The notes under the pieces are model-generated. The model was not told where the DNA came from, ran no database searches, and worked only from the letters and a program-made list of their open reading frames with translations. Source: Pseudorhodobacter antarcticus (lineage in GTDB: Bacteria; Pseudomonadota; Alphaproteobacteria; Rhodobacterales; Rhodobacteraceae). Taken from it: 32,883 nt of DNA. The translations under genes were made by a program, and so were the position numbers. Where the stretch lies: contig CAMBWO010000010.1 of the NCBI GenBank assembly GCA_945871285.1, positions 1 through 32,883 of the forward strand. Direction: 5' to 3'. Numbering within the stretch: the stretch's first letter is position 1; the number at the start of each line of letters is the position of its first letter. Below, in pieces: positions 3,728-20,352 of this stretch.

Positions 3728-3797
3728 CCCCGCAGAGCAGGCGCTCGCGCCATGGTCTGCCAGTCTGTTGTTTTCTGCGACTTACAGGAGAACTCAC

Positions 3798-5267
3798 ATG
3801 TCGCTTTTGACCCGACGCGGCTTTCTTGCCGCAACTTCGGCTTCGGCCGCTACTTTGCTTTTGCCCGCCCAAGTGCGTGCTCAATCCACCCGGATGACCC
3901 TTTCAGCCACATCGCGCACCATTGAGGTGCAAGGCAAGGCTGCGACAGTCTGGGGCTTGCTCGACGGCAACGGACGTTCCGGCCTTGTCCTTGATCCGGG
4001 GCAGGCCTTCGCGGTTGATCTGACCAATACGCTTGACGCACCGACCATCATCCACTGGCACGGTCAGATCCCGCCCAATATGCAGGACGGGGTGCCCGAC
4101 CTGCCGATGCCGATGCTGCAACCCGGAGAGTCCCGCGGCTATGACTTTGCCGCACGTCCCGGGACGCATTGGATGCATGCCCATATCCCCGAGCATGAAA
4201 TGCTACTGCTTGCTGCCCCGCTCGTGGTTCGCCGACCGGAAGATGTGTCGGCCGACAGGCAGGAAGTGACGCTATTCCTGCATGACTTCTCCTTCAGACC
4301 ACCAGCCGAAGTGCTGGCGGAGATCACTGGCGGCACCTCGATGGCCGGGATGGATCACAGCCAGATGGGGCAGGACGGCACGGCCGCGATGGACATGGAC
4401 GTGATGGGGCAGGGCGACGCTATGTCGATGCCGGGCATGGACGGTATGGCCATGGACCTGAACGATTACAACTTTGATGCCTATCTCACCAACGACCGCA
4501 CCCTTGACGACCCCGAGGTATTGCAGGTCGACAAAGGCGGCCGGGTCCTTGTCCGCGTCATCAATGCGGCAGCAGCGACGGTATTCTGGATCGACACAGG
4601 CAGCCTGCCGGGGCGGTTGGTCGCCGTGGATGGCGAGCCGGTCCAGCCCGTGCCCGGCAGCCGTTTCGGCTTGGCCATGGGTCAGCGGCTTGACATCGAA
4701 CTGAATGTGCCGGCCGAGGGTGGAGCTTTCCCCATCCTTGCGCTGCGAGAAGGCGCGAAAGAACGCACGGGCCTGATTCTAGCGACGCCGGGGGCTACGG
4801 TGACGAAGGTATCCAGTCTGTCTGACGCTGAACATCCGGCATTCAGCGCTGACCTTTCGCAAGAGGCTGCTTTGCGCGCCGTCATGTCGCTGCCCCAACG
4901 CGCGCCGGCTTCGCAGCCGATGCTGATGCTGGGCGGGTCGATGATGCCCTATGTCTGGACGATCAACGGCCAGACCTGGGGCAAACATGTCCCTGTCACC
5001 GCGAAGTCCGGCGACAGGGTAGAGATCACGTTCCACAACATGTCGATGATGGCGCATCCCATGCACTTGCACGGTCATGCGTTTCAGGTGGTCAGCACGG
5101 GTGGCGCGCGTTTTGCAGGTGCGGTGCGCGACACTGTGCATGTGCCACCCATGGGTATGGTGACCGTCGCGGTGGATGCAGGCGAAGCCGCGCGGTGGAT
5201 GCTGCACTGCCACCACATGCCCCACCTTTCAACGGGCATGATGACCGAGTTCGCAGTATCGGCCTAA
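3798..5267 (+). CDS. CopA/CueO-like periplasmic multicopper oxidase with Met-rich insert
   Basis: The 489-residue protein has a Tat signal (TRRGFLAATSASAATL) and three cupredoxin domains with all copper motifs: HWHG at 86-89, HWMHAH at 124-129, HPMHLHGHAF near 420 and HCHHMPHLSTGMM near 470, the last giving the type 1 site with its axial Met. Such enzymes oxidise Cu(I) to Cu(II) in the periplasm and reduce oxygen to water. Between domains 2 and 3 (about 188-225) is a Met/Asp/Gly-rich insert (MAGMDHSQMG..MSMPGMDGMAMD) like the methionine-rich regions that bind Cu(I) in CueO. The start has AGGAG seven bases upstream. The gene ends just before a strong terminator and lies downstream of the Met-rich small protein. 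Confidence 0.93.
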   Translation: MSLLTRRGFLAATSASAATLLLPAQVRAQSTRMTLSATSRTIEVQGKAATVWGLLDGNGRSGLVLDPGQAFAVDLTNTLDAPTIIHWHGQIPPNMQDGVPDLPMPMLQPGESRGYDFAARPGTHWMHAHIPEHEMLLLAAPLVVRRPEDVSADRQEVTLFLHDFSFRPPAEVLAEITGGTSMAGMDHSQMGQDGTAAMDMDVMGQGDAMSMPGMDGMAMDLNDYNFDAYLTNDRTLDDPEVLQVDKGGRVLVRVINAAAATVFWIDTGSLPGRLVAVDGEPVQPVPGSRFGLAMGQRLDIELNVPAEGGAFPILALREGAKERTGLILATPGATVTKVSSLSDAEHPAFSADLSQEAALRAVMSLPQRAPASQPMLMLGGSMMPYVWTINGQTWGKHVPVTAKSGDRVEITFHNMSMMAHPMHLHGHAFQVVSTGGARFAGAVRDTVHVPPMGMVTVAVDAGEAARWMLHCHHMPHLSTGMMTEFAVSA

Positions 5268-12441: not shown

Positions 12442-13623
12442 CTATACCTTGATCAGGGCCGCGGTGGCATACATGAACGCGAGCCCGGCAAGAAAACCGC
12501 CAAGAACAGCGGGAGCAAACAGCACGAATTGCCGGTCGTTGTTCTGGCGCATGAGGTAGGCGGTGACCTCGACCATGACCTGCAGGATCGCACCTGCCCC
12601 GACGGCCAGTGCCAATGCCGACCACTGCGGCGCATAGGCCAGACTGCCCGCCCACATGCCCAGAACTGCCGGGCCGCCCGCCAGTAACGTAAGGGCAGCA
12701 AAGGTCCAAAGTGGTGGCCGGACACGCAGCATTGGTGCGGCGATGCCGATGCCTTCCGTCACATTGTGCAGCGCAAATCCGAGGACGAGGAAGGTGCCAA
12801 GCCCTGCCGACCCGGCAGCGAACGCCCCACCGATGGCCAGCCCTTCTCCGAAATTGTGCAACCCGATCCCGAGGGCGATGTAGAAGGCCAGCGCCAGCCC
12901 TTCGGGCGTGCCGCGCCAGCGTCCGATGGCCATCAGCAACAGGAAACTCGCCAAGCCGGCCAGCCAGACCATTGCAGACCCCTGGAACAATGCGGCGGCA
13001 CTGGCCGCAAGTTCCAGCGCCTCGGAGGTCATGTCGATGAGCAGAAAGGCCAGCAGGCCCACAGTCAGCGCGAGCAGGAAATTCATGCCCCCCCGCCCGA
13101 CCCCGCGCATCGCCGGATAGAACATCAAGCCAAGCGCCACCGGCAGCAGGCCGACAATTGCACCCACCAGCGCCTGAAGCCGCAGTTGGCCACCCGTGGC
13201 CTTTGGCGTCGGCACAGCCACAGCAATTTCATGCTCGAATGCGGTCCCGGTGTTGGACAGCATATTCACAAGATGCGCTTCACCCAAAACCCAAGGATAG
13301 GGGATCTGCACCCAGACGGTATCGCCGCGCGCAATCGGTCCCGGCGGGTCTTGCGTGAACGTCCAGAACGCATCGTCTACGGCCACTTGCGCAATAGCCA
13401 TGGGTTCTGATCCACCGGCGCGCACCAGCAGCCCGATCCCGGCCTCGTCCAGAATGGTCCGCTCCACAGTCAGCGCTTCGACCGCGGGCGCGCCGTTGTT
13501 GAAGCTGCGCAGGGGATCAAGCGACGCGATCCAGACGAAGGCACCAAGCATGGCTGCCAACGGCACAAGCACCAATAGCAGACGGGTCAGCACGGGGCGG
13601 GTTGGTTGGTTCTGGTCGCTCAT
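12442..13623 (-). CDS. ZIP-family metal transporter with an N-terminal extracytoplasmic domain
   Basis: The 393-residue protein has one N-terminal helix (about 12-34), a non-hydrophobic stretch of about 110 residues (about 37-147) and then seven or eight helices with the two ZIP metal motifs HNFGEG (256-261) and HNVTEG (286-291). ZIP proteins move Zn, Fe or Mn into the cytoplasm. Ordinary bacterial ZIPs are about 260-300 residues and lack the soluble front domain. Its ATG overlaps the stop of the multicopper oxidase (ATGA), so the two are made together. The mntR gene diverging from this operon points to manganese or iron as the substrate. Confidence 0.82.
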   Translation of the reverse strand: MSDQNQPTRPVLTRLLLVLVPLAAMLGAFVWIASLDPLRSFNNGAPAVEALTVERTILDEAGIGLLVRAGGSEPMAIAQVAVDDAFWTFTQDPPGPIARGDTVWVQIPYPWVLGEAHLVNMLSNTGTAFEHEIAVAVPTPKATGGQLRLQALVGAIVGLLPVALGLMFYPAMRGVGRGGMNFLLALTVGLLAFLLIDMTSEALELAASAAALFQGSAMVWLAGLASFLLLMAIGRWRGTPEGLALAFYIALGIGLHNFGEGLAIGGAFAAGSAGLGTFLVLGFALHNVTEGIGIAAPMLRVRPPLWTFAALTLLAGGPAVLGMWAGSLAYAPQWSALALAVGAGAILQVMVEVTAYLMRQNNDRQFVLFAPAVLGGFLAGLAFMYATAALIKV

Positions 13624-14765
13624 GCTGCGGGTCCCCGAACGTCAAACATGCCGACCCAGCCAAGCTCGGTGAACTCGGACTGGTGGGCGTGGAACATGTA
13701 CATGCCATCCTCGTGCTCGGCGAAGCTGAATTCAAGAATGCCGCGCTGCGCCTGACACTGGGTGATAAGATCGACGGTGCGCAGGGTGGGCGTCAGTGTG
13801 GTGCCGGTGTCGAAGTAGTTAAAGAAATTCGCGTGCAGATGGAACGAGTTGATCGGGTCGAACTCGGTCACGTTGACCAAGTAGATCCGCACGGGCCGGG
13901 TCTTGTCGATTTGGATCGGCACGTTCATGTAGGCTTGGCCGACAGTATTGGCGGCATAAACCTCGTTGGCACCGTCGAAGTTTGTATCGAAGGCGTTCAT
14001 CACCATCGCCAGTTCCTGCCATTCGGCATTCTCGGGACTGCCGTGCAAGCGCGACGCAGCAATAGCTGTAAAGGCCGGGTCCGTCTGGCGGGCTGGGTCG
14101 GGGTCGATGACGAACAGTCCATACATGCCCTTGTGCATGTGCCGTTTCAGCGGCAGCGCATGGCAGTGATACACATGGCAGCCAAAGGGCTTTGCGTCGA
14201 ACTCGTAGATGAATTCCTCGCCGGGCCCGATCAGCCCGGCACCGGGAACACCGTCCATCCGCGCTGAATGGATGCCATGGAAATGCATGGAATGTGGGTG
14301 CGAGCCCAGATTGCGGAAGACGATCCGCAGCCTTTCACCTTCCTTCGCCCTCAGGGCCGGTCCGGGCACACGACCGTTGAATGTCCAGGCGGGAAAAAAG
14401 ATGCCGGGGGCAATCTCGATTTCTCTGTCGATGGCATCGACTTCGAAAGTGCGCAGAGTCCTGCCATCGGGCAGCAGCTCGGTTCGACCAGTCTCCCAGT
14501 CTGTTAACATGGAGGTAGGATCGAACCCGTTCCTGCCGTGATCTACCAGACCGACCGTTGTCATGTTGCCATGCGCCATCCCCGACATGGGTGCCGCATA
14601 GGGATCGGATGGCATGTTGGACATGTCGTGACCGGCCATCGGGTCTGGTACGCTTTGCGAGCGCGCGCTGCCAGCAGCGATCGCAGCACCACCGGCGGCC
14701 ACAAGACCACCGACAAGCAGAGCGCGGCGCGACGGGTCAACGGAGCGTTCGGTATCGGCAGGCAT
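13620..14765 (-). CDS. Multicopper oxidase, second type (Tat-exported)
   Basis: The 381-residue protein has a Tat leader (PSRRALLVGGLVAAGGAAIA), a Met/His-rich linker (MAGHDMSNMPSD..MSGMAHGNM) and copper motifs MHFHGIH, HVYHCHALPLKRHMHKGMYG, FHLHANFF and FHAHQSEFTELGWVGMF. It is shorter than CueO-like enzymes and organised like two-domain oxidases or nitrite-reductase-like cupredoxins, so its substrate could be Mn(II), Fe(II) or Cu(I). The start at 14765 has GAGGAAG upstream. It is the first gene of an operon with the ZIP transporter and diverges from mntR across a palindromic operator. Confidence 0.88.
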   Translation of the reverse strand: MPADTERSVDPSRRALLVGGLVAAGGAAIAAGSARSQSVPDPMAGHDMSNMPSDPYAAPMSGMAHGNMTTVGLVDHGRNGFDPTSMLTDWETGRTELLPDGRTLRTFEVDAIDREIEIAPGIFFPAWTFNGRVPGPALRAKEGERLRIVFRNLGSHPHSMHFHGIHSARMDGVPGAGLIGPGEEFIYEFDAKPFGCHVYHCHALPLKRHMHKGMYGLFVIDPDPARQTDPAFTAIAASRLHGSPENAEWQELAMVMNAFDTNFDGANEVYAANTVGQAYMNVPIQIDKTRPVRIYLVNVTEFDPINSFHLHANFFNYFDTGTTLTPTLRTVDLITQCQAQRGILEFSFAEHEDGMYMFHAHQSEFTELGWVGMFDVRGPAA

Positions 14766-14812
14766 GGATCGGACTTCCTCGCAAGAGCGGCACCAAAGTC
14801 TGTGCGCCAAAA

Positions 14813-14828
14813 GTTAGACAAGGCTAAC
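14813..14828. promoter_or_regulatory. Putative MntR/DtxR-type operator between oxidase operon and mntR
   Basis: GTTAGACAAGGCTAAC is an inverted repeat GTTAG-6-CTAAC, matching the TTAG..CTAA core of DtxR/IdeR/MntR boxes. It lies 48 bases upstream of the oxidase ATG and 52 bases upstream of the mntR ATG, a position able to control both directions. Confidence 0.6.
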
Positions 14829-14879
14829 AATCTGCTCTGTGCCTTTACGTGTCAATCCATTTCGTGCAAAACTGGACTG

Positions 14880-15338
14880 ATGACGAACGTTGATCTCCAG
14901 AAAATAAATGCAGTCGAGCCTGAAGCCCGGGCTGGCGACGCCCGCGCCGAGGCGTTTCAGGGCGTGCGCGTGGCAAGGCGCAATGAACTGGCGGAAGACT
15001 ACGTCGAGTTGATCGCCGAATTGATTCACAATCAGGGCGAAGCGCGTCCCGTCGACATTGCAACCAAGATGGGCGTCACGGCACCCACCGTTGCCAAGAC
15101 TCTCGGCCGTCTTGCCCGGGATGGCCTGATCACCCGCGCCAAGTATCGCTCCGTTTTTTTGACTGAGGAAGGCCGCGCACTGGCCAAGGAATGCCGCCAC
15201 CGGCATGAGATCGTGTTGCGGTTTCTGATCCGCCTTGGGCTTGACCCTGAGACAGCCGAACACGACGCCGAAGGCATCGAACATCACGTCAGCGAGCGCA
15301 CGCTTGCCTTGTTCGCAGCATTTGCCAATCGGTCCTGA
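14880..15338 (+). CDS. mntR: Manganese-responsive repressor MntR (DtxR family)
   Basis: The 152-residue protein has an N-terminal extension, a winged helix-turn-helix (about 55-95, VDIATKMGVTAPTVAKTLGR) and a metal-binding/dimerisation domain with RHRHEIV and AEGIEHHVSERTLALF, which match the metal ligands of proteobacterial MntR. The single-domain length (no SH3 domain) also fits MntR and not DtxR. It represses Mn uptake genes or activates Mn export when Mn is replete. The ORF track opens much earlier (14538); the ATG at 14880 is chosen because similarity begins about there and the palindromic operator lies just upstream. Confidence 0.88.
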   Translation: MTNVDLQKINAVEPEARAGDARAEAFQGVRVARRNELAEDYVELIAELIHNQGEARPVDIATKMGVTAPTVAKTLGRLARDGLITRAKYRSVFLTEEGRALAKECRHRHEIVLRFLIRLGLDPETAEHDAEGIEHHVSERTLALFAAFANRS

Positions 15339-15346
15339 GCGGACGC

Positions 15347-16006
15347 TCAGACACTTTCGACCGCAGCTTTGACTTCGGCAATCAAACTTTCCGGGCTCAC
15401 GTTTTCCAGCCGTTTGCCGTCTAGAAAGAAGGTCGGCGTCTGACGGATCCCAACGGCTTCGACATCGGCCATGTCCTGATTGAGGACACCGGTAATCCCT
15501 GGAAACAGGCGGTCGCTCTCGGCCTTTTTCAGATCAAGCCCAACCGCCCCCGCCACCCGCCAGGCGACATCCATCTGCGGTCCGTCGTGCAGCGCCCAAG
15601 TGGGCTGCTTTTCAAGGAGGGCGTCGAGAACTTGTTCAAACTTGTCCTGCATCCGCGCGACCTCAAGGATGCGCACTGCCTCGTCCGAACCTTGGTGGAA
15701 CACCGTGTAGCGCAGCACGACACGGACCTGCGTGGGGAACTGCTTTTTGATTTCCATCACGGTCGGGTGAAAGGCGCGGCAGGCCTCGCAGGAAGGATCG
15801 AAGAACTCGACCAGCGTGACCGGCGCATCGGCGGGGCCAAAGCTGGGGGAGTGGGGGCGGATCAAAAGTGCCGGGTCGACGGCCGGGGTAGCAGCGGCGA
15901 CCGCTTCGGCTTCGGCCTTACGTTGGCGGTTCAGGAAAAAGGTGCCGCCGCCGAAAGCGACAAGGCCAAGGGCCGAAGCCCCGATCAACAAGGTGCGGCG
16001 GTTCAT
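15347..16006 (-). CDS. DsbA-family thiol oxidoreductase (CEAC active site)
   Basis: The 219-residue protein has an N-terminal anchor or signal (about 5-25) and a DsbA-type thioredoxin fold with VTLVEFFDPSCEACRAFHP, cysteines at 73 and 76, and the cis-Pro motif TPTFF near the C-terminus. CEAC is an unusual active-site dipeptide. Its ATG overlaps the dsbB stop (ATGA), making a dedicated DsbA-DsbB pair that forms disulfides in exported proteins. It is the last gene of the P-type ATPase operon. Confidence 0.88.
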   Translation of the reverse strand: MNRRTLLIGASALGLVAFGGGTFFLNRQRKAEAEAVAAATPAVDPALLIRPHSPSFGPADAPVTLVEFFDPSCEACRAFHPTVMEIKKQFPTQVRVVLRYTVFHQGSDEAVRILEVARMQDKFEQVLDALLEKQPTWALHDGPQMDVAWRVAGAVGLDLKKAESDRLFPGITGVLNQDMADVEAVGIRQTPTFFLDGKRLENVSPESLIAEVKAAVESV

Positions 16007-16440
16007 GTGCGGGTTCCTTTGGGAAAGATCAGACAGGCAAGAATGACGGCAAAAGCCGCCAGCGACAGGTAGGGAATAGGCAGGCCAAGGATGATCTGCG
16101 CCGGACCCGAGCATGAGGGGCCGTCCTTGGTACAAGGCGCGACCGCCTCGGGGACAAGTCCGAGATAAAGCCCGGAGTGCCAACCTGCCAGTGCCAGACC
16201 CGCCAGCACCAGCGGAAGGGCGTAAGGGCGCGCTATGCCATCCCCGCGCCAGAGCGACAGGCCAAGGATCGGCACCAGCGGGAACATCGCGATGCGCTGA
16301 TACCAGCAAAGGGTGCAGGGCATCTGACCCAGCACCTCGCCGATGAACAGCGCGCCAAGCGTCGCGGCAAGTGCGATCAGGAACGCGGCCGTCAGGGGCA
16401 CGTCATCGCGCGACAGCGTCTGTGTATCAGCGTTGGTCAA
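16003..16440 (-). CDS. dsbB: DsbB-like disulfide bond formation protein
   Basis: The 145-residue membrane protein has four helices and both DsbB cysteine pairs: PCTLCWYQR (C42, C45) and PCTKDGPSC (C103, C110). DsbB reoxidises DsbA by passing electrons to quinone. The start is a TTG at 16440, chosen because AAGGAG lies eight bases upstream; the ORF-track start at 16563 would add a non-hydrophobic extension lying inside lspA. It overlaps lspA by 14 bases. Confidence 0.88.
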   Translation of the reverse strand: MTNADTQTLSRDDVPLTAAFLIALAATLGALFIGEVLGQMPCTLCWYQRIAMFPLVPILGLSLWRGDGIARPYALPLVLAGLALAGWHSGLYLGLVPEAVAPCTKDGPSCSGPAQIILGLPIPYLSLAAFAVILACLIFPKGTRT

Positions 16441-16912
16441 GAACAGGCTCCTTACGGCGGCGAAAGGGCAGAGAGGCGGTGATGATGCAGACCGCCCCCA
16501 GCGTGATGGCGATATCCGCGACATTGAAAGTGGGCCAGTGCCAGTCGCGCCAGTAGAGATCAAGGAAATCGGTCACCGCACCTTGCCGCAGCCGGTCGAC
16601 GATGTTGCCGATCGCCCCACCAACTACAAGGGCAAAGCCCGCGCGTTCAAACGGATGGCGTGCCCGGAACGCCATGACAGCAAACATCAGGGTCAGTGCT
16701 CCGGTCAGCGCTGCCATCAGTAGGGGTTTGCCTGCCATCACGCCCGACAGCATGCCGAAGCTCGATCCTTCGTTGAAACCGAGCGTCAGGCTGAAGCCGG
16801 GCATGACGGCAACCGGCTGGCCAAGCGCGAGCTTTGACAGGGCTGCTGCCTTGCTCAGCTGATCGGCGAGAGTAGTTGCCGCGATCAGGACGACAATCCA
16901 CCGCTTCTTCAT
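16427..16912 (-). CDS. lspA: Lipoprotein signal peptidase (signal peptidase II)
   Basis: The 161-residue protein has four membrane helices and the family motifs: ADQLSK (16-21), FNEGSSFG (46-53), GGAIGNIVDRL (98-108), then the catalytic aspartates D115 (AVTDFLDLY) and D133 (FNVADIAI). It cleaves prolipoprotein signal peptides before the lipidated cysteine. Placement within a metal-efflux operon recalls PbrC of lead-resistance operons, which is an LspA-type protein. It overlaps both neighbours. Confidence 0.92.
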   Translation of the reverse strand: MKKRWIVVLIAATTLADQLSKAAALSKLALGQPVAVMPGFSLTLGFNEGSSFGMLSGVMAGKPLLMAALTGALTLMFAVMAFRARHPFERAGFALVVGGAIGNIVDRLRQGAVTDFLDLYWRDWHWPTFNVADIAITLGAVCIITASLPFRRRKEPVLDQR

Positions 16913-17532
16913 GGCATTTCCTTAGCGCGAAAGCCAATCCAGCGCGGAACCGAGGCAGCATAGCGGTCGTAGTCCGATCCGAGGGTCTGACGCAGCGCTG
17001 CCTCTTCCGACCGGACCTGCATAGTGGCCGACCAAAGGAAAAGGATTGCCGCAAGGATCGTCGGAACAGCAGGGACCGCGAGGGCGACCCCGGCCAGCAG
17101 GGCGATCTGTCCGACAAAGGTCGGGTTGCGACTGAATTGATAGAGGCCACCTGAGACGAGGTTGCCTGTCTGGCCGCTCACCACACCGACACGCCAGGAG
17201 GTGCCCATCGACATCTGAGCGGCAAAGGCCACCATCGCGCCAAGGCCCGCGATGAAGATGCCGATCGTGCTGATCGTCAAAGCATTTCCCTCGGTCCAGA
17301 ACGGATCGACCTTGTGCAGCATGGGCAGCGCCAACCACAGGAGCGGCCCGAAGAAGGCAAGCGCGAACGCCGCGCGGAACCCGAGGGCCGCCAACCGGTC
17401 GTGCCCCGTGGCGCGCGCAAACAGCCAGACCGGTCGTCCCGCTGCCTGCGCTGCAACAGCACTGCCCCAAAAGAACAACGCGAGATAACCGAAGAGAAGG
17501 GCCAGCGCGGCCCAACCAAAGCCAGACATCAT
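16909..17532 (-). CDS. Isoprenylcysteine carboxyl methyltransferase-like membrane protein
   Basis: The 207-residue protein has about five hydrophobic segments and the C-terminal ICMT/PEMT-type signature: GGLYQFSRNPTFVGQ (128-142) and the EE pair (176-177) followed by YDRYAASVPRWI. Eukaryotic ICMT methylates prenylated cysteines; bacterial homologues are mostly uncharacterised and often lie in metal-resistance operons with P-type ATPases and CDF exporters. It starts four bases after the ATPase ends and overlaps lspA by ATGA. Two adjacent start codons (17532, 17529) cannot be distinguished. Confidence 0.82.
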   Translation of the reverse strand: MMSGFGWAALALLFGYLALFFWGSAVAAQAAGRPVWLFARATGHDRLAALGFRAAFALAFFGPLLWLALPMLHKVDPFWTEGNALTISTIGIFIAGLGAMVAFAAQMSMGTSWRVGVVSGQTGNLVSGGLYQFSRNPTFVGQIALLAGVALAVPAVPTILAAILFLWSATMQVRSEEAALRQTLGSDYDRYAASVPRWIGFRAKEMP

Positions 17533-17536
17533 TGCA

Positions 17537-19822
17537 TCACGCCTCGCGTTCGGGGTTGAACCGCAGCAGGCGCAGCGCGTTCAGGGTGACCAGCACAGTT
17601 GCCCCAGTATCGGCAAGAATGGCGATCCAGAGGCCCGTCAGCCCCAGAACCGAGGTCACCAGAAACACGGCCTTCAACCCAAGCGCGATCGTGACGTTCT
17701 GCCGGATGTTTGCCATCGCCGCGCGCGACAACCGGATCGTCGCAGGAATGTCCGTCACCCGGTCACGCAGGATCGCTGCATCGGCGGTTTCCAGCGCGAC
17801 ATCGGTGCCTGACCCCATCGCCACGCCCACACTCGCTTGCTTCAGCGCGGGCGCATCATTGATGCCGTCGCCGATCATCATCACGCCGCCCCGTTCACTC
17901 ATCGTCTTGATGGCCTTCAGCTTGTCTTCGGGCATCATGTCGGCCTGAAACTCCATGCCGAGCCCGCCTGCAATCGCGGCCGCCGTGCGCGGGTTGTCGC
18001 CGGTCAGGATGACCGAGGTCACGCCCATCGCAGTAAGTTGGCGCACCGCCTCCTTGGCGTCAGTTCGCGGCTCGTCCCGCATGGCGATCAGGCCGAGCGG
18101 AGTCTTTTCGCGGAACACCGCGACGGCGGTCTTGCCGTCCTCCTCAAACACCGTGGCCTGCCGCAGGCCGAGGCCATCGAGCCCGCCATTCTCCATGGCG
18201 TAGCGCGGCGAAGCGACCCATGCCGATGCTTCGCCAACCGTTGCGATCACGCCCTTGCCCATCAGGGCCTTGGCATCGCGCGACGGCAGAGCCGCGACAC
18301 CGGCATCCTTGGCCTTGTTCAGGATGGCGATGGCCAGAGGGTGGCTCGACCCGGTTTCGACCCCCGCTGCAACAGCCAGCAACTCCGCTTCAGTCGTGGT
18401 GCCGAAAACAACCACGTCTGTGACCTTCGGCCGCCCGTGCGTCAGCGTTCCGGTCTTGTCGAAGGCGATGCGGTTGACCTTCGCCGCCGCCTCGATCACT
18501 GCGCCGCCCTTCATCAGCAGCCCTCGTTTTGCGCCCGTGGACATCGCCGAGGCGATGGAAGCTGGGACCGAGATGACCAGTGCGCAAGGGCAACCGATCA
18601 GCAGCAGCGCCAGCCCACGATAGACCCAAGTGTCCCACGGCTGACCAAAGGCCAGCGGCGGCACCAGCACGACAAGGGCCGCGACCGCAACGATTGCGGG
18701 CATATACCAGCGGCTGAACCGGTCGATGAACCGTTCGGTTGGCGCGCGGGCCTCCTCGGCCTCTTCGACCAGACGGATGATGCGGGCGATGGTATTGTCT
18801 TCCGGCCCCTTGGTCACTTTGACCCGCAGCGCCGCTTCGGTGTTGATCGAGCCAGCAAACACCGAATCCCCCGGCCCGCGTGTCTTGGGCACGCTTTCGC
18901 CGGTGACCGGGCTTTCATCGACGCCGGAGGTGCCTTCGGAAATCTCGCCATCCGCCGGAATACGGTCACCGGGACGAACGAGGATCATTTGACCGACTGA
19001 CAGGCTGGCCGCGGCCACCTCTTTCGTCGTGCCGTTCACTTCCAGCAGCGCGGTTTTGGGTACCAGATTGGCCAGGGCCCGGATACCTTCACGCGCTTTG
19101 CCGGCTGCGACACCCTCCAGTACTTCGCCCACGGCAAACAGAAACACCACAATTGCAGCCTCGGCGGCGGCGTCGATGAACAACGCCCCGATCGCGGCCA
19201 CCGTCATCAGGCTTTCAATGGTAAACGGCTGACCCATCCGCAGCGCCGCGAATGCGCGTTTCGCCACCGGGGCCACGCCGATCACGCAAGCGGCAACAAA
19301 GGGCCACTTGCCGATCTCGGGCGCCAGATACTCGATTATCCAGGCCACCCCCAACAAGAGGGCGGTGAAGATCACCAGCTTGCCCTTGCCAGTCTGATAC
19401 CAGCGCTTGCCGCGATCCGCAGGATCGTCATGGACATGACCGGGGCTGCCATGACCGGAGTCTTCGCGCTTTGCGGCGGCGTCAGCCTGCGGGCGCTGGT
19501 CGTGCCCCACATGATTGTGGTCGGCGTGTTCTCCAGCGTGTTCCTTCGCAACCTCCGCGACGGGCAACACGAACTCTTTCTTCGCCGATGCCGCACGCGG
19601 CGCGATCTGATAGCCGAGGGCGCGCACGGTCTTCTCGATCTTGTCCCGCCCGGTCTGGGCCTCGTCCAGCGTGAGGCGCAGGCGCTCAGTCATGATGCCG
19701 ACCTCGACGCCGCTGACCCCCGGCAAACGCGCCACCGCGTCCTTGATCTTGGTCGCACAGGACCCGCAGTCCATGCCGGAGACAGTCCAGTCGCAGGTGG
19801 TTTCGCCGTTTGACGCTGTCAT
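17537..19822 (-). CDS. Heavy-metal P1B-type ATPase (ZntA/CadA-like)
   Basis: The 761-residue protein has an N-terminal HMA domain with GMDCGSC (16-22), a His-rich linker (EHAGEHADHNHVGHD), eight expected helices, the CPC metal site in GCPCALVISVPASI, the phosphorylation site DKTGTLTHG, SSHPLA and the hinge GDGINDAPALKQASVGVAMG. The combination of CPC with a later DVALETADAAIL fits the Zn/Cd/Pb export group. The start at 19822 is chosen because AGAGAGGAAGACA precedes it; the 19861 ATG would sit almost at the transcription start. It is the first gene of a five-gene operon (ICMT-like, lspA, dsbB, dsbA) under a MerR-type promoter. Confidence 0.93.
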   Translation of the reverse strand: MTASNGETTCDWTVSGMDCGSCATKIKDAVARLPGVSGVEVGIMTERLRLTLDEAQTGRDKIEKTVRALGYQIAPRAASAKKEFVLPVAEVAKEHAGEHADHNHVGHDQRPQADAAAKREDSGHGSPGHVHDDPADRGKRWYQTGKGKLVIFTALLLGVAWIIEYLAPEIGKWPFVAACVIGVAPVAKRAFAALRMGQPFTIESLMTVAAIGALFIDAAAEAAIVVFLFAVGEVLEGVAAGKAREGIRALANLVPKTALLEVNGTTKEVAAASLSVGQMILVRPGDRIPADGEISEGTSGVDESPVTGESVPKTRGPGDSVFAGSINTEAALRVKVTKGPEDNTIARIIRLVEEAEEARAPTERFIDRFSRWYMPAIVAVAALVVLVPPLAFGQPWDTWVYRGLALLLIGCPCALVISVPASIASAMSTGAKRGLLMKGGAVIEAAAKVNRIAFDKTGTLTHGRPKVTDVVVFGTTTEAELLAVAAGVETGSSHPLAIAILNKAKDAGVAALPSRDAKALMGKGVIATVGEASAWVASPRYAMENGGLDGLGLRQATVFEEDGKTAVAVFREKTPLGLIAMRDEPRTDAKEAVRQLTAMGVTSVILTGDNPRTAAAIAGGLGMEFQADMMPEDKLKAIKTMSERGGVMMIGDGINDAPALKQASVGVAMGSGTDVALETADAAILRDRVTDIPATIRLSRAAMANIRQNVTIALGLKAVFLVTSVLGLTGLWIAILADTGATVLVTLNALRLLRFNPEREA

Positions 19823-19870
19823 TGTCTTCCTCTCTGCCCGAAAACGAGCAGTTGTCCTCATCGAATCAGT

Positions 19871-19901
19871 AATCTAATGTCTCTAGCAACTATAGCTTCA
19901 A
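19871..19901 (-). promoter_or_regulatory. MerR-type promoter/operator of the P-type ATPase operon
   Basis: On the minus strand: TTGAAG, a 19-base spacer CTATAGTTGCTAGAGACAT, TAGATT. The dyad CTATAGTTGCTAGAG closely resembles published PbrR/CadR-type operators (CTATAGTAACTAGAG pattern). It sits in the gap between the ATPase and the divergent merR gene, as is usual for the family, so it probably also autoregulates merR. Confidence 0.85.
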
Positions 19902-19911
19902 GAGGAATCTG

Positions 19912-20352
19912 ATGCTGACCATAGGGAAACTTGGGGCACAGGCCGGGGTGAAGGTGCCGACCATCCGCTACTACGAGCAAATCGGCATCTTGCCCGAGGC
20001 TGAACGCAGTGCCGGAAACCAGCGACTTTACAGCCGCAAGGCGCTCGAACGGCTGGCCTTCATCCGGCACGCCCGCGATCTGGGCTTCACGCTGGAGGCC
20101 ATCCGGGACCTTCTCAGCCTGTCGGACAATCCCGACCAGTCCTGCGCAGCCGCTGATACCATCGCCAAGGCTCAACTGGCGGAGGTCGAGAGCCGCATCG
20201 CGCGCCTGACGGCGCTAAAAGCGGAACTCGAACGCATGGTCGTGCAGTGCGCAGGCGGGCGGATCGCTGATTGCCGGGTGATTGAGGTGCTGGGGGATCA
20301 TTCGCTTTGTGCAACAGATCACCGCCACCCGCACTCCGCCCACCCGGACTAG
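19912..20352 (+). CDS. MerR-family Cd/Pb/Zn-responsive regulator (CadR/PbrR-like)
   Basis: The 146-residue protein has the MerR winged helix (VPTIRYYEQIGILPEAERS), a dimerisation helix and metal ligands C78 (QSC), C113 and C121 (QCAGGRIADC), the three-cysteine pattern of CadR/PbrR. The C-terminal tail HSLCATDHRHPHSAHPD adds His and Cys as in CadR. It would activate the divergent ATPase operon by untwisting the 19-base spacer. AGAGGAA precedes the ATG. Which metal it prefers cannot be read from the sequence. Confidence 0.9.
   Translation: MLTIGKLGAQAGVKVPTIRYYEQIGILPEAERSAGNQRLYSRKALERLAFIRHARDLGFTLEAIRDLLSLSDNPDQSCAAADTIAKAQLAEVESRIARLTALKAELERMVVQCAGGRIADCRVIEVLGDHSLCATDHRHPHSAHPD

Follow-up and report, generated by a model that had tools for sequence, protein, structure and literature searches.

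Which metal would be handled by a unit in which an exported oxidase is joined to a divalent-metal permease, and what would the oxidase contribute to uptake? The question is raised by a 32,883 nt stretch of Pseudorhodobacter antarcticus DNA (contig CAMBWO010000010.1; hereafter the window), where the genes for a multicopper oxidase (MCO) and a ZIP-family permease lie divergently to mntR, which encodes a DtxR-family regulator (Table 1). An initial annotation had suggested that the pair may be a Mn or Fe oxidation/uptake unit. Given the tight pairing of the two genes, the geometry of the MntR box, the exchange of the pair for MntH in a relative and a sitA-type operator in a second lineage, the unit resembles a Mn importer that is itself repressed by Mn. 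We consider it probable that mntR-MCO-ZIP is a horizontally acquired Mn-acquisition module, repressed by Mn-MntR, in which the MCO acts at the mouth of the ZIP permease. The Mn-uptake part of the earlier proposal is favoured by MntH, the MntR box and a Mur-type box.

Table 1. Positions of the mntR-MCO-ZIP unit, its control elements and the adjoining metal island in the window (AF2, AlphaFold2; Tat, twin-arginine translocation)
Feature	Position (nt)	Strand	Size or placement	Basis
ZIP-family permease	12442-13623	-	393 aa	near-threshold Pfam Zip score; AF2 model; Foldseek match to BbZIP
ZIP N-terminal periplasmic beta-sandwich region	13174-13518	-	residues 36-150	AF2 pLDDT 89.3
ATGA overlap (MCO stop/ZIP start)	13620-13623	-		sequence; -4 overlap common in homologous pairs
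Type-C two-domain MCO	13620-14765	-	381 aa	Pfam Cu-oxidase_3 and Cu-oxidase_2; Tat motif; Cu ligands
Predicted MntR box GTTAGACAAGGCTAAC	14813-14828		some 50 nt from each start codon	conserved palindrome
Putative -10 element GATTGT	14827-14832	-	17-nt spacer; covers first 2 nt of MntR box	spacing
-35 element TTGACA of the MCO-ZIP promoter	14850-14855	-		spacing conserved in 49 loci
MntR, DtxR-family Mn-binding regulator	14880-15338	+	152 aa	NCBIfam PRK11050; PDB 2h09; ligands
MerR (CadR/PbrR-like)-ZntA-ICMT/PEMT-LspA-DsbB-DsbA metal island	15347-20352		adjoins mntR-MCO-ZIP unit

The oxidase-permease pair

The ATGA overlap of the two genes and the GTTAG-6-CTAAC palindrome between the pair and mntR, both reported in the initial annotation, were confirmed. 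The most likely start of the MCO is the ATG at 14765, which is preceded by a Shine-Dalgarno sequence (GAGGAAG); an alternative TTG start at 14810, given by a mechanical open reading frame call, is unlikely.

Coupling of the two genes is strict. When MCO and ZIP were searched separately in 385 alphaproteobacterial genomes, a sample spread over the class, the same eight genomes were matched by both, with one copy of each gene and the two adjacent in all eight. Among 79 genome loci with the ZIP, the MCO lies directly upstream in all that are not truncated, the majority of some 85 homologous pairs overlap by 4 nt, and the distance matrices of the two proteins are closely correlated (r=0.96 over 53 pairs). 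Uncoupling in relatives, named at the outset as the outcome that would speak against the unit, was rejected, as the sole exceptions were truncated contigs and remnants in Paracoccus. These remnants (L074, L075 and L143; Paracoccus, G054) have lost the MCO, and what is left of the ZIP, its C-terminal part, runs into an mntR that is itself truncated; the ZntA-LspA-DsbBA island next to them is intact. The pair is also present in Cyanobacteria, Deinococcota, Actinomycetota, Bacillota, haloarchaea and Nitrosopumilaceae, and is carried by annotated plasmids of Cyanobacteria, Deinococcus, Rhodococcus, Arthrobacter, Bacillaceae and haloarchaea. In Chroococcidiopsis and Rhodococcus (L086, L088, L093) MCO-ZIP is followed, as third gene, by one for a Rieske 2Fe-2S protein, a possible electron-transfer partner.

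Of the two cupredoxin domains of the MCO, only domain 1 carries the type-1 Cys, and the set of type-2/type-3 His residues is complete. Its motifs are HFHG, HCH...H...M and HLH, with a HAH lacking Cys in domain 2, and all Cu ligands are in place (H158, H161, H163, H200, C201, H202, H209, H309, H311, H359 and H361), as is the axial ligand M214. A Tat signal, SRRALL, occupies residues 12-17. The closest solved homologues by sequence are PDB entries 7rab (E=8e-155) and 3gdc (E=7e-97), with alignments that span most of both domains; a search of the available literature found no paper naming structure 7rab. Assignment of this MCO to the CopA/CueO type of copper resistance was rejected, as it scored 83 bits against a cut-off of 479 for copper_res_A and 37 against 525 for CueO. 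Another MCO of the window (nt 3768-5267) has three domains and is best matched by CopA-type copper-resistance models (203 bits, below the cut-off of 479).

The permease scores 33.3 bits with Pfam Zip, slightly below the gathering score of 35.1, and its AF2 model (pLDDT 86.8) has BbZIP as its best Foldseek match (5tsa, E=2e-6). An additional N-terminal transmembrane (TM) helix (residues 11-35) is followed by a periplasmic beta-sandwich (51-133) and then by eight TM helices (144-392). The metal-site motifs HNFGE (256) and HNVTE (286) lie in TM4 and TM5, and H256/E260 and H286/E290 are invariant across 29 homologues. The length of the protein is 374-421 aa in every lineage examined, and archaeal ZIPs align across the N-terminal domain. 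Pfam and NCBIfam searches gave no match for this domain, no conserved metal-ligand set was found in it, and its weak Foldseek likeness to FlaF/archaeal pilin sandwiches (E=5e-4) is at the level of fold only. The topology would place this immunoglobulin (Ig)-like sandwich in the periplasm, where the Tat-exported MCO could possibly dock.

The divergent promoter and other genes in its place

The regulator scores 198.6 bits with NCBIfam PRK11050 (cut-off 153), matches the E. coli MntR structure 2h09 (E=9e-40) and has all six Mn ligands intact (D40, E43, H109, E131, E134 and H135). Its predicted box, GTTAGACAAGGCTAAC, is the sole GTTAG-N4..8-CTAAC in the draft source genome (4.6 Mb, 89% completeness, 4% contamination), which holds three sites with no more than one mismatch to RTTAGC-N4-GCTAAY, namely the window box and two others at one mismatch. 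The box is kept, at a spacing of 6, in all 49 divergent mntR-MCO loci, which represent 28 distinct promoter-plus-box sequences; ten arm bases are retained in 23 loci, nine in 25 and eight in one. The inner bases drift among the loci, with a consensus of RTTAGC-N4-GCTAAC, from which the window copy departs by one degenerate base in the core. That core, TAGC-N4-GCTA, is the same as in the E. coli MntR box. Dinucleotide shuffles of the mntR/MCO intergenic regions reached nine arm bases in only 5 of 2340 cases and this, together with the conservation in 49 loci, rules out a chance palindrome.

Upstream of the box, TTGA[CA] is found at 27 nt from its start in 47 loci and at 28 nt in the other two. 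The arrangement is that of a repressor site, because a -10 element set off from the -35 by 17 nt would fall partly within the box. The control of the pair by MntR that had been proposed earlier thus gains support from box conservation and promoter geometry, as a prediction from sequence. More distant mntR-MCO-ZIP units on plasmids of Sinorhizobium, Shinella and Phyllobacterium have ATAGC-N4-GCTAT palindromes, and a DtxR-family regulator is near or adjoining the pair in Deinococcus and Arthrobacter.

The occupants of this promoter slot are informative. In one relative (L137) a MerR-ZntA-ICMT-LspA-DsbB-DsbA-mntR island, with the box and the 27-nt TTGACA spacing, drives the Nramp transporter MntH instead of MCO-ZIP; its mntR is 74% identical to that of the window. 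Other Rhodobacteraceae mntR genes are opposite SitA/ZnuA-type binding proteins or Nramp. The gene order is MCO-ZIP-Nramp in L145, with the Nramp gene directly after the pair, and MCO-ZIP-mntR on one strand in four further loci (L146-L148 and L150). The source genome itself has a single MntR above cut-off and three ZnuA/SitA-type binding proteins, and no Nramp was found in the draft.

In five Rhodobacteraceae loci (L132-L136; genomes G117, G120, G079, G130 and G103) a similar MntR and box are opposite a protein of about 620 aa, which in one locus matches the CCP_MauG di-haem peroxidase family; in those of the loci that were read further along, genes for PhnD-, PhnC- and PhnE-like ABC transporter components follow it. 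These loci would apparently represent a second, undescribed combination of a periplasmic redox enzyme and an importer under MntR.

Some Rhizobiales carry the pair without MntR. There the palindrome TGCRAAYNRTTYGCA is perfect upstream of 12 of 14 MCOs, and 13 of the 14 have it with no more than one mismatch; it was perfect in none of 2800 shuffles and is absent from 16 MntR-type loci. In the same genomes it precedes 9 of 10 SitA-type genes, with 0-2 mismatches, and none of the 8 ZnuA-type genes. In Rhizobium leguminosarum, sitABCD and mntH are repressed in response to Mn by Mur, a Mn-responsive Fur homologue (PMC5575495). Different Mn-sensing repressors thus appear, from these operators, to control MCO-ZIP in two alphaproteobacterial lineages.

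The ZIP was not present in 40 relatives, 15 of the same genus among them, and the unit adjoins the metal island, which is why it is regarded as acquired, probably by horizontal transfer of all three genes as one self-contained module. The MerR-ZntA-ICMT-LspA-DsbB-DsbA island is kept in many Rhodobacterales, and the position of its LspA beside a P-type ATPase is reminiscent of pbrABC lead resistance.

Manganese uptake and the alternatives

In the sequence of events that we favour, Mn-MntR would occupy the box over the -10 element of the TTGACA promoter when cytoplasmic Mn is sufficient, and MCO-ZIP, probably with mntR as well, would be off. Shortage of Mn, perhaps also that caused when Cd, Zn or Pb displaces it (the context of the neighbouring resistance genes), would open the promoter. 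The MCO would leave the cell folded, via Tat, and probably dock on the periplasmic Ig-like domain of the ZIP, which would bring in a metal in divalent form, in all likelihood Mn(II). The oxidase would act at the entrance to the permease, where its oxidation of competing Fe(II) or Cu(I) would most likely leave a ZIP of broad range carrying chiefly Mn(II); alternatively, it could oxidize Mn directly and hand it over. The removal of Fe(II)/Cu(I) is preferred because it best fits a divalent ZIP. Of this scheme, the order and coupling of the genes, the geometry of box and promoter, the intact metal ligands, the exchange with MntH and the operator shared with sitA are read from sequence, while repression by Mn, the metal carried, the docking and the substrate of the oxidase are predictions. 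The fuller reading, that this is a Mn importer whose selectivity is set by a tethered MCO (removing Fe(II)/Cu(I), or oxidizing Mn) and an ancient bacterial and archaeal cassette recruited independently by MntR and Mur-type regulators, is offered tentatively, as less likely than not.

Several points weigh against the Mn-uptake explanation. The identity of TGCRAAYNRTTYGCA as a Mur-type box rests on family knowledge and the sitA association, and the sitA comparison is the sole independent test, because it was the MCO upstream regions that first drew attention to the palindrome. Some pairs adjoin other regulators or Cu/Cd/Zn resistance genes. Residues 37-68, at the N-terminus of the MCO, are rich in Met and His, as in Cu(I)-handling MCOs, and in ammonia-oxidizing archaea MCO1 and the adjacent permease are mildly up-regulated at Cu limitation (PMC7785015).

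The alternative that survives best, still unlikely, is a coupling of the Fet3-Ftr1 kind, in which the ZIP receives a trivalent ion straight from the MCO, after oxidation of Mn(II) or Fe(II). The strict pairing and the Ig-like domain as a possible dock suit this scheme, and a link between oxidation and uptake is plausible because Mn oxidation by MCOs in Pseudomonas putida GB-1 raised intracellular Mn 59-fold over that of an mnxG mcoA double mutant, a study which offers Fet3-Ftr1-type coupling as one idea (PMC3798386). Hand-over of an oxidized metal is weakened, however, because the ZIP is without RExxE; its fold is unrelated to that of Ftr1, and it retains divalent-type H/E sites, as in BbZIP.

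Copper acquisition or handling, with the MCO turning Cu(I) into Cu(II) and the ZIP importing Cu(II), as proposed for the archaeal MCO1-ZIP, would account for the archaeal expression response, the Met/His-rich N-terminus and the copper genes that adjoin the pair in some plasmids. It is nonetheless improbable: the regulators and operators are of Mn type in both alphaproteobacterial lineages, and the slot is swapped with MntH rather than with a copper transporter. ZIPs are, moreover, not known to import copper.

Less probable again is heavy-metal resistance cargo, in which the ZIP would scavenge periplasmic Cd, Zn or Pb for export by the P-type ATPase, in the manner of PbrT or MerT, while the MCO shields the envelope. 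The neighbouring MerR-ZntA-LspA-DsbBA island and the plasmid and resistance settings in other genomes are in keeping with such a role, yet control is of Mn type and not of Cd/Pb/Zn type, and many of the pairs (Ensifer, archaea, haloarchaea) are not part of an island of this kind. Mn detoxification, by activation of a Mn-oxidizing MCO by Mn-MntR with the ZIP as an efflux or accessory protein, is scarcely credible even though MntR is able to switch on efflux genes as well, in B. subtilis and E. coli, and MCOs are able to oxidize Mn(II), as box and putative -10 overlap in each of the 49 loci and the alternatives in the MCO-ZIP slot are importers (MntH, SitA-type).

If Mn uptake is the function, the unit would be a new class of Mn importer, an oxidase with a ZIP, replacing MntH or SitABCD. 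It would also give the widespread MCO-ZIP pair a testable Mn role, and could mean that some bacteria keep metal-oxidizing MCOs as uptake partners and not for detoxification.

Comparison with known systems

A literature search that was made without most subscription journals found no paper linking MCO-ZIP to MntR, Mur or Mn. An earlier study of ammonia-oxidizing archaea (PMC7785015) already described the adjacency of MCO1 and ZIP, drew the analogy to Fet3 and proposed copper as the metal. The archaeal units (Nitrososphaera viennensis NVIE_000600/000590; Nitrosopumilaceae) likewise have a two-domain MCO beside a ZIP-family permease, and two Nitrosopumilaceae loci examined here (L078, L080) are homologous to the window pair over both proteins, including the N-terminal domain of the ZIP. 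Copper uptake was proposed for the archaeal units and no Mn regulator was reported, whereas MntR or a Mur-type box accompanies the pairs described here; Mn uptake, if correct, would be an alternative for the archaea.

The yeast ferroxidase-permease logic invoked in the initial annotation stands as a functional analogy, one that was already in print in the archaeal study. Fet3p-Ftr1p also combines an extracytoplasmic MCO and a metal permease under starvation-type regulation. Membership of that system was rejected: Fet3p has three domains and the window MCO is a two-domain type-C enzyme, while Ftr1 is a REXXE permease for Fe and the window permease has a ZIP fold without REXXE and would probably carry Mn. 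The FtrABCD and EfeUOB iron importers similarly place a periplasmic redox protein and a permease in one operon, but they use an Ftr1-type permease with peroxidase or cupredoxin partners, and the window unit has a complete MCO.

Like ZupT and BbZIP, the window permease has the ZIP fold of eight TM helices, with an HNxxE motif in each of TM4 and TM5. Unlike them, it has an extra anchor helix and the Ig-like periplasmic domain, carries Gly or Thr in place of the Pro of HNxPE, and scores under the Pfam and ZupT cut-offs. MntH and SitABCD, where regulated by MntR or Mur, have the regulator, box and promoter slot in common with MCO-ZIP (L137 and others), and the Rhizobiales pairs have the same type of operator as SitABCD; MCO-ZIP differs from both in combining a ZIP-family transporter with an oxidase partner. 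An oxidase joined to a permease is thus a known kind of system, while the evidence for Mn and the exchange with MntH appear to be new.

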